NCBI GenBank assembly: GCA_030592025.1
Contig: JAUUZX010000035.1
Span: 1-8,666 of the forward strand
Origin: a bacterium
GTDB taxonomy: Bacteria; Krumholzibacteriota; Krumholzibacteria; LZORAL124-64-63
DNA: 8,666 nucleotides
Direction: 5' to 3'
Part shown: one piece after another, positions 7,690-8,666 of the stretch
How positions within the stretch are numbered: position 1 is the first letter of the stretch
How the letters are laid out: every line of letters starts with the position of its first letter
Notes under the pieces: generated by a model
What the model was told of the DNA's origin: nothing
Databases searched by the model: none
The model's input: the letters and a program-made list of their open reading frames with translations, nothing else
Translations under genes and position numbers: made by a program

Positions 7690-7718
7690 TTGACATGGCC
7701 ATCGCCGCCGCGTATTCT
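7690..7718 (+). promoter_or_regulatory. Near-consensus sigma-70 promoter for the leader RNA
   Basis: A perfect TTGACA (7690-7695), a 17-base spacer and TATTCT (7713-7718, 4 of 6 to TATAAT). Transcription should begin near 7724-7726, which puts the first hairpin at the very 5' end of the RNA. Confidence 0.8.
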
Positions 7719-7727
7719 CGTCGGGAT

Positions 7728-7757
7728 CCTTTAACCGTGGCCCGTGAGCCCGAAAGG
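7728..7757 (+). promoter_or_regulatory. PyrR-type RNA hairpin, copy 1
   Basis: The RNA can fold as follows. CCUUU (7728-7732) pairs with AAAGG (7753-7757). AAC is bulged on the 5' side. CG, a bulged U and GGC (7736-7741) pair with GCC-CG (7748-7752). The hexaloop is CCGUGA (7742-7747). This fits the known PyrR-binding pattern: a CNGNGA hexaloop, a purine-rich 5'-side internal bulge and a lower stem ending in AAGG. The 3' strand of the lower stem contains the Shine-Dalgarno bases of the leader ORF at 7768. PyrR as the ligand is inferred; no pyrR gene is in the window. Confidence 0.7.
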
Positions 7758-7767
7758 AACCTGACCG

Positions 7768-7854
7768 ATGGCCCTTGAAAACAGGCAGGACCACGCAACC
7801 CCGACGCCCCAACGGCGTGCGGGGCCTTTTTTTATCCACCAGTGCCCCCTTTAA
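7768..7854 (+). CDS. 28-codon leader ORF running through the terminator
   Basis: ATG 7768 to TAA 7852-7854 encodes MALENRQDHATPTPQRR followed by AGPFFIHQCPL. AAAGGAA at 7753-7759 gives a Shine-Dalgarno about 9 bases upstream, and part of it is locked in hairpin copy 1. Codons 11-22 are the intrinsic terminator, and the stop codon lies in the internal bulge of hairpin copy 2. There is one Asn codon and no run of any single amino-acid codon, so it is not a classic starvation attenuator. I infer that translating it keeps the terminator open. That it is translated is not shown by the sequence. Confidence 0.45.
   Translation: MALENRQDHATPTPQRRAGPFFIHQCPL
7799..7833 (+). terminator. Strong intrinsic terminator inside the leader
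   Basis: CCCCG-ACGCC (7799-7808) pairs with GGCGT-(G)-CGGGG (7814-7824), a 10-bp GC-rich stem with one bulged G and a 5-base loop. It is followed by CC and seven T (7827-7833). It sits between the promoter and the synthetase-like gene with no complete gene before it, so it is an attenuator and not the end of an operon. Confidence 0.85.
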
Positions 7855-7878
7855 CCGGCGTCCGTGAGCGCCGGAAGG
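7848..7878 (+). promoter_or_regulatory. PyrR-type RNA hairpin, copy 2, overlapping the ribosome site
   Basis: CCUU (7848-7851) pairs with AAGG (7875-7878). UAA (7852-7854) is bulged on the 5' side. CCGGCGU (7855-7861) pairs with GCGCCGG (7868-7874), closing on a U-G pair. The hexaloop is CCGUGA (7862-7867), identical to copy 1. The Shine-Dalgarno GGAAGGAG (7873-7880) of the gene at 7887 is mostly inside the 3' strand, so a stabilised hairpin should block translation, as is known for PyrR on mycobacterial pyr leaders. Confidence 0.75.
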
Positions 7879-7886
7879 AGACCGTC

Positions 7887-8666
7887 ATGACGACCACCGG
7901 GTCCGAGCCCGTCCTCCACCACGCCGCCCGTTTCATCGCCCCGGGCCGCCCCCGCCCCCTGGCCCGGCGTCTGGCCATCCACAACCGGGTCGTGCAGCGC
8001 GTCCGCCGCTTCCTCGAGGAGCAGGGTTTCAACGAGGTGCCCGTGGCCTCCCTCGCGCAGATCGGCACGGTCTGCGAGGCCACCGACACCGCCTTCACCC
8101 TGGACCACTGCGGCGCCCTCGCCTTCGCCGGCCAGGGTGGCCAACTCGCTTTGGAGACCATGGTCGCCGGCGGGTTCCCTGCGGTGTGGTGTGAGACCGA
8201 GGCGCTGCGCCAGGAATGGAAGGTGGATGAGCGTCACCTGACCGCCTTCAAGCTCATCGAGGCCGAGGGACGGGACCTGGACCTGGACGCCCTGTGCACG
8301 GTGCAGGAGAAACTCCTGAAGACCGTGGCGTCGGACCTGGGCGCCGAACTGCTCGGCGGGCGGGACGTCACCCGGCTGGACCGCATGCTGGGGTTCGACC
8401 ACCCCCGCGTCACCTACCGCGAGGCGTTGGCCGTTCTCAACGAGCGCGGCTGGTCCATGCCCTTCGGCGAGGACCTGCATCGGGACGCCGAAGCGACCCT
8501 CAGCCGCTACTTCGGGTATCTGCCCTTCTTCGTGACCCACCTGCCGGCGTCCCTGAAGCCCTTCAACCTGCAGCGCGACCCCGACGACCCCCAGCAGTGC
8601 CTGAGCGCGGAGTACATCCTGCCCTGGTCCGGCGAGGCCATGGACGGCGGCGTGCGTGAGGTCGAC
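7887..8666 (+). CDS. Asparaginyl-tRNA-synthetase-like enzyme lacking the anticodon-binding domain (partial)
   Basis: 260 codons are visible and the frame runs off the window. GGAAGGAG (7873-7880) sits 6 bases before the ATG. The protein matches the class II catalytic core of AsnRS/AspRS. It has a helix leading to RFLEEQGFNEV (41-51), then GQGGQLALE (82-90), motif 2 as ALRQEWKVDERHLTAFKLIEAE (106-127) with Arg108 and RHL 116-118, then HPRVTYREAL (172-181), PFGEDLH (192-198), LPASLKPF (219-226) and GEAMDGGVRE (249-258). The usual N-terminal OB-fold of about 100 residues is absent: the catalytic domain starts almost at the ATG, and the frame upstream is leader RNA. That layout is known for archaeal AS-AR, an asparagine synthetase derived from AsnRS. 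It may make asparagine from aspartate, or be another aaRS paralogue. Its leader suggests control through PyrR-like hairpins. Confidence 0.8.
   Translation, partial: MTTTGSEPVLHHAARFIAPGRPRPLARRLAIHNRVVQRVRRFLEEQGFNEVPVASLAQIGTVCEATDTAFTLDHCGALAFAGQGGQLALETMVAGGFPAVWCETEALRQEWKVDERHLTAFKLIEAEGRDLDLDALCTVQEKLLKTVASDLGAELLGGRDVTRLDRMLGFDHPRVTYREALAVLNERGWSMPFGEDLHRDAEATLSRYFGYLPFFVTHLPASLKPFNLQRDPDDPQQCLSAEYILPWSGEAMDGGVREVD

Follow-up and report, generated by a model that had tools for sequence, protein, structure and literature searches.

A putative two-gate PyrR leader upstream of an AsnRS-like gene, compared with the pyr leaders of Thermus and Bacillus

The RNA loops to which PyrR binds are characterized by a hexaloop (CNGNGA) on a stem, an internal bulge and a lower stem in which CCUU pairs with AAGG. 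PyrR is a translational repressor in Mycobacterium smegmatis. The pyr leader of Thermus strain ZO5 is likewise PyrR-regulated; in a proposal reportedly put forward by Van de Casteele et al. in 1997, its terminator is kept open by a translating ribosome and no antiterminator is involved. In Bacillus subtilis, PyrR acts through an anti-antiterminator mechanism (reviewed in PMC4347634, excerpts), and coupled ribosomes have been described, in a separate paper, as preventing intrinsic terminator hairpins (PMC5021804, abstract).

The leader described here, found in a stretch of 8,666 nucleotides from an uncultured bacterium that was analysed as a whole (the window), resembles each of these systems in part. 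It shares with the Thermus ZO5 leader, as reportedly proposed, a predicted regulation by PyrR, a translating ribosome set against a terminator and the lack of an antiterminator: a leader Shine-Dalgarno sequence lies in a PyrR box and the frame behind it meets a terminator, both in the window and in 19 of the 20 leaders of the same build in a first set of relatives. It differs from that proposal in having a second box, which covers the main gene's own Shine-Dalgarno, and in its target, an AsnRS-like gene (ASNL) that often precedes carAB in relatives; a sister group, moreover, has the terminator inside pyrB. Compared with the pyr attenuators of B. subtilis (RF00515), the sequence and shape of the binding loop and the association with pyrimidine genes are alike, whereas here no antiterminator was found, the leader Shine-Dalgarno lies in the first hairpin and the Rfam score is below the cut-off. 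PyrR repression in M. smegmatis is matched by the box on the main Shine-Dalgarno (hairpin 2, 7848–7880 when counted to the end of that sequence; also 16 relatives with a single box), but here a translation-dependent terminator under a box of its own would come first. Ribosome-mediated attenuation of the trp type shares the leader ORF and the terminator; here, in contrast, no antiterminator and no run of control codons was found (there is only a mild excess of Asp), and the signal would be initiation rather than stalling. We consider it quite probable, judging from sequence and comparison, that the leader is a two-gate pyrimidine switch, in which PyrR would act at hairpin 1 through translation-dependent termination and at hairpin 2 by covering the main Shine-Dalgarno.

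All elements of the leader lie on the forward strand. They are preceded by a sigma-70-like promoter (TTGACA-17-TATTCT, 7690–7718; one found by the scan, against a mean of 0.0 in shuffles), and similar TTGAC...TAT boxes stand upstream of many relatives (by eye, uncounted); the transcript would be expected to start just 5′ of hairpin 1. Hairpin 1 (7728–7757, CCTTTAACCGTGGCCCGTGAGCCCGAAAGG; fold z −2.24 against dinucleotide shuffles) is built like a PyrR box, with CCUUUAA, the hexaloop CCGUGA and AAGG, and its 3′ strand contains most of the Shine-Dalgarno AAAGGA (7753–7758) of a leader ORF of 28 codons (7768–7854; ATG at 7768, TAA at 7852–7854), the frame of which is kept in relatives. With codons 11–22 this ORF covers an intrinsic terminator (7799–7833; stem 7799–7808/7814–7824, T7 at 7827–7833; −18.0 kcal/mol, z −2.86), and its stop codon falls within the 5′ part of hairpin 2, a second PyrR-box-like hairpin (7848–7878; fold z −2.71, with covariation in the box alignment). 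The AAGG of the main-gene Shine-Dalgarno AAGGAG (7875–7880) is part of hairpin 2, and ASNL begins at ATG 7887, encodes a class II aminoacyl-tRNA-synthetase-like core of the AsnRS/AspRS type (PF00152, E 4.2e-19) and runs off the window (7887–8666). These positions coincide exactly with those of the initial annotation of the sequence, which had placed the leader Shine-Dalgarno in hairpin 1, the terminator under codons 11–22 and the leader stop inside the hairpin that holds part of the main Shine-Dalgarno. A simple terminator scan missed the terminator, the stem of which has a one-base bulge; the 176-nt region as a whole folds no better than shuffles (z −0.81; 43 of 200 shuffles as good), and its lowest-energy fold pairs the leader start with the main-gene Shine-Dalgarno. 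Conservation is stronger evidence for the leader elements than the folding scores of single elements.

Both hairpins of the window look like PyrR-binding loops: each has a UAA bulge, and the lower stem CCUU/AAGG and the hexaloop CNGNGA match the Rfam PyrR consensus. The PyrR model itself (RF00515) scores 24.6 bits (E 0.23) over 7724–7833, that is, over hairpin 1 and the terminator, which is below its gathering score of 54 bits; a scan of the window at the gathering score returned no match, and none of nine relatives' genomes exceeded that cut-off (best 32.2 bits). In an alignment of 28 distinct boxes (hairpin 2 of the window and 27 from relatives; 31-nt boxes only, each sequence once, those of 30 or 32 nt being left out), the upper stem has a covariation score of 0.375; shuffles average 0.149, and none of 500 was as high. 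The number of pairs changed on both sides, 6, was reached by 68 of the 500 shuffles; the other four covariation measures lay beyond the shuffles. That the lower stem and the loop do not vary among the aligned boxes is a consequence of the search pattern, which fixed both but left the upper stem almost free. The protein that acts on hairpin 1 is very probably PyrR, which is encoded in all nine relatives' genomes searched (eight above the cut-off; in the ninth genome the match is partial and lies at the end of a contig); from these relatives we infer its presence in the organism of the window.

The box pattern was found in 8 of the 9 genomes that hold ASNL (17 matches against 1 for a backwards control pattern), in 38 of 80 genomes of the phylum of G001 (50 against 9), in 4 of 20 of the phylum of G008 (7 against 1) and in 20 of 47 of the phylum of G004 (25 against 3), the four genome sets overlapping. 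Wherever the gene after the box can be read, it is ASNL, pyrR, carA (L075, L078) or pyrB (L098–L106); the contig of L094 ends 194 nt after the box, before any gene. ASNL is followed by carA at 14 of 36 loci, with carA and carB at L001 passing the NCBIfam cut-offs, and by carB alone at 2 more; no car gene was found downstream of ASNL at the remaining 20, 9 of which have at least 1.8 kb of downstream DNA. At L010, L011 and L014–L016 the relaxed pattern found no box in the 300 nt upstream of pyrR; the pyrR leaders of L010 and L011, the closest relatives of the window, carry a terminator-like hairpin by eye, without a PyrR box by that pattern.

Upstream DNA is available for 38 ASNL leaders (L006, whose contig begins at the gene, was dropped), of which 22 are double leaders, with hairpin 1, terminator and hairpin 2, and 16 have a single box; a tree built from 36 ASNL proteins requires at least 4 changes between the two forms, and 7 by parsimony. 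One box was assigned by eye or by the relaxed pattern in 7 of the 20 first-set double leaders (L003, L069, L072, L083–L086). All 22 double leaders have a leader ORF whose frame stays open into or past the terminator, or ends no more than 12 nt short of it. Of the 20 in the first set, 19 have a start codon 6–11 nt after AAGG, with the frame open to the terminator, whereas 1000 shuffles gave 5.1 on average and never more than 10; the ORF of L084 begins at +20 and has its own AAGG in front of it. When the set was thinned to less related leaders, 14 of 15 had such a start and frame (shuffle mean 3.7, maximum 9). The interval of +6 to +11 was picked after the first set had been viewed, so that the second set, gathered later, is the fairer test. 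It comprises 20 new loci (L088–L106 and L109; L107 and L108 are the second boxes of L091 and L095), from which L089, L093, L102 and L109 were excluded as having no terminator by the criteria used, as was L013 from the first set. The 16 loci kept include 8 pyrB genes, in which the start is the gene's own; the other 8, leader-type loci tested separately, have the start and open frame in 6 cases (shuffle mean 2.2, P 0.005). Conservation of the leader frame in relatives was one of the checks proposed in the initial annotation. Once a start codon is given, openness is only mildly unusual in such GC-rich DNA (all 20 open where 16.9 would be expected, P 0.02), and the remaining two frames are open as far in 7 and 13 of the 20 first-set leaders; the well-placed start codon, more than the open frame, is the main surprise of the conservation.

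Leaders of pyrR follow the same plan in part. A terminator is present in 10 of the 11 in the first set, and the start codon and open frame in 6 of those 10 (shuffle mean 2.0, maximum 5). Relatives with the terminator and no open leader frame had been named in the initial annotation as the case that would speak against its model: no such case occurs among the 22 ASNL leaders, but among the 10 pyrR leaders with a terminator L012, L052, L055 (ATG at +12) and L058 have no start at +6 to +11, and in the second set L092 (pyrR) and L094 have a terminator and no start at the usual place. Four pyrR leaders (L013, L089, L093, L109) have a box and no terminator by the criteria used, and L109 has no start codon within 21 nt.

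The strongest hint at the mechanism comes from pyrB. In these relatives (L098–L106, phylum of G004) the PyrR box lies on the Shine-Dalgarno of pyrB, and 8 of the 9 genes have a hairpin with a T-run downstream of it, within their first 20 or so codons; the 5′ arm starts at codons 8–10 in 7 genes and at codon 3 in L106, and L102 has the hairpin and lacks the T-run. Later pyrB coding regions have 2 terminator-like sites in 7497 positions scanned. The identification as pyrB was checked with NCBIfam for 5 of the 9, the other 4 sharing the N-terminal motif RHLLGLE, and in the 5 proteins tested the ATCase model begins at residues 23–29, after an N-terminal extension. No in-frame ATG, GTG or TTG occurs between the terminator and the ATCase domain in 6 of the 9 (5 of the 8, the sixth being L102), so that the pyrB frame must cross the terminator there; in L104, L105 and L106 translation might also start at the T-run or behind it. 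A ribosome that crosses the terminator within pyrB would be doing just what the model proposes for the separate leader ORF.

With pyrimidines plentiful, PyrR (with UMP, by analogy) would bind hairpin 1 at the extreme 5′ end of the transcript and mask the leader Shine-Dalgarno; the leader would stay untranslated, the terminator would fold and transcription would stop. On transcripts that escape, PyrR on hairpin 2 would mask the Shine-Dalgarno of the synthetase-like gene. With pyrimidines short, hairpin 1 would open and a ribosome would trail RNA polymerase over the 5′ arm of the terminator, or onto it, so that the terminator could not fold and the main gene, and in relatives also carA-carB, would be transcribed and translated. 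The first step, in which leader translation would block termination and PyrR would block leader translation, is well supported by the comparison: the initial annotation had proposed that leader translation prevents the terminator and that a protein bound at hairpin 1 has the opposite effect, and the conserved leader start and frame, the boxes and the pyrB terminators within coding sequence all argue for it. In these phyla at large, PyrR would turn translational repression into termination by means of a terminator that is translated across, without an antiterminator, and would do so in three ways: with a leader ORF alone, with a leader ORF plus a second PyrR gate on the AsnRS-like gene (often found 5′ of carAB), and with a pyrB fusion in which roughly the first 20 codons of the enzyme serve as its attenuator. 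This wider statement seems to us slightly favoured on balance.

The place where the leader ORF stops bears on how hairpin 2 would be opened. In the initial annotation, a ribosome terminating in hairpin 2 opens it and so activates the main Shine-Dalgarno as well. This fits the window and 8 other leaders (L002, L065, L068, L069, L083, L085, L091, L095), the stop lying inside hairpin 2 in 9 of the 22; in the other 13 it lies elsewhere, at or in the terminator in 8 (L001, L003, L070–L074, L086), before hairpin 2 in 4 (L004, L008, L009, L084) and past it in 1 (L005), and a stop inside hairpin 2 was accordingly rejected as a conserved feature. Where the stop is in the terminator or adjoins it, a ribosome halted there would sit on the 5′ arm, so the 8 such leaders count for the leader-translation model. 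The box, furthermore, contains TAA (in CTTTAA) and often TGA (in GTGAG), in two frames, so that a frame reaching it usually ends there anyway; 9 of the 10 frames that reach hairpin 2 end in it, where about two thirds would be expected. In all 16 single-box ASNL leaders the box lies directly on the Shine-Dalgarno, with the ASNL start codon 7–12 nt behind it and no leader between, which indicates that the box can work as an independent gate. As a general mechanism, the opening of hairpin 2 by a terminating ribosome therefore did not hold up, and the full model of the initial annotation is unlikely; such opening is possible in the window and is not a conserved principle. A second PyrR gate is the better interpretation of hairpin 2, and the two-gate switch treats it as such.

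The composition of the leader peptides raises the alternative that they sense charged tRNA, namely aspartyl-tRNA, by stalling, the PyrR boxes being additions. The 20 leader ORFs examined contain 17 Asp codons against 7.7 ± 2.6 expected from shuffles (z 3.6, with 20 amino acids tested and kinship uncorrected). Against this, peptide sequences are not conserved overall, the leader frames of the kin L068 and L070 are shifted relative to each other, no leader peptide of the 20 has a run of a single codon, 7 of the 20 have no Asp before the terminator arm, and these leaders have no antiterminator, all of which makes amino-acid attenuation very improbable.

The same missing element weighs on attenuation of the Bacillus type, in which PyrR-bound hairpin 1 would be an anti-antiterminator and the ORF incidental. 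The alignment of the Rfam PyrR model across hairpin 1 and terminator, at the 24.6 bits given above, speaks for it. Duplex energies, however, revealed no pairing of the terminator 5′ arm with upstream RNA beyond chance (mean z +0.41; none of the leaders tested below −2), so that an antiterminator alternating with the terminator, as in trp-type and Bacillus-type leaders, was not found in the 20 leaders, which bears out its absence as claimed initially; with the conservation of the leader start and frame and the pyrB terminators within coding sequence, this leaves a Bacillus-type mechanism barely credible. That hairpin 2 is the sole regulator, with hairpin 1, ORF and terminator as remnants of an upstream transcription unit, would fit the 16 single-box leaders, which have no further box within 250 nt upstream by the relaxed pattern and in 5 cases a terminator-like site upstream of the box, but it can scarcely be right given the promoter-like site directly 5′ of hairpin 1, the retention of all parts in 22 leaders and the conserved start codon behind hairpin 1.

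Relative to the systems described before, three features appear to be new: that one leader combines the two gates, that ASNL is a target, and that a form fused to pyrB exists. No description of a two-gate leader, of an ASNL target or of a pyrB fusion was found in the titles and abstracts of the open-licence literature, a scope outside which the main PyrR papers lie, so that this is weak evidence of novelty. If the two-gate switch is real, a translational repressor would become a transcriptional attenuator without a new RNA switch, by the placing of a terminator where ribosomes must run, and a synthetase-like protein that is unstudied would join the pyrimidine regulon. The separate, doubled and gene-fused forms stand side by side in relatives and make the old Thermus proposal testable by comparison.

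The ASNL protein itself looks like a decaying synthetase. Homologues number 218, and the NCBIfam models for AsnRS and AsnA match ASNL far below their cut-offs; a true AsnRS is over the cut-off in 10 of the 11 genomes searched, and ASNL can therefore not be the only AsnRS of these genomes. In an alignment of 3 full-length homologues with ASNL from 10 chosen loci (L060, L062–L065, L068, L074, L079, L081, L084), the segment around SCEAVDS..LDHFG..AFPRQTGQL is wholly or mostly missing from all 10, as is the R-x-E of motif 2, and L068 and L084 also lack the Arg of motif 3; the copy in the window retains motif 2. ASNL may be a pseudo-enzyme under PyrR control, often encoded 5′ of carAB, and a partner of carbamoyl-phosphate synthase. 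Asparagine synthetase B (AsnB-type) is over the cut-off in 7 of the 11 genomes, and in the four where it is not (G004, G005, G008, G009) ASNL has a double leader in every case.
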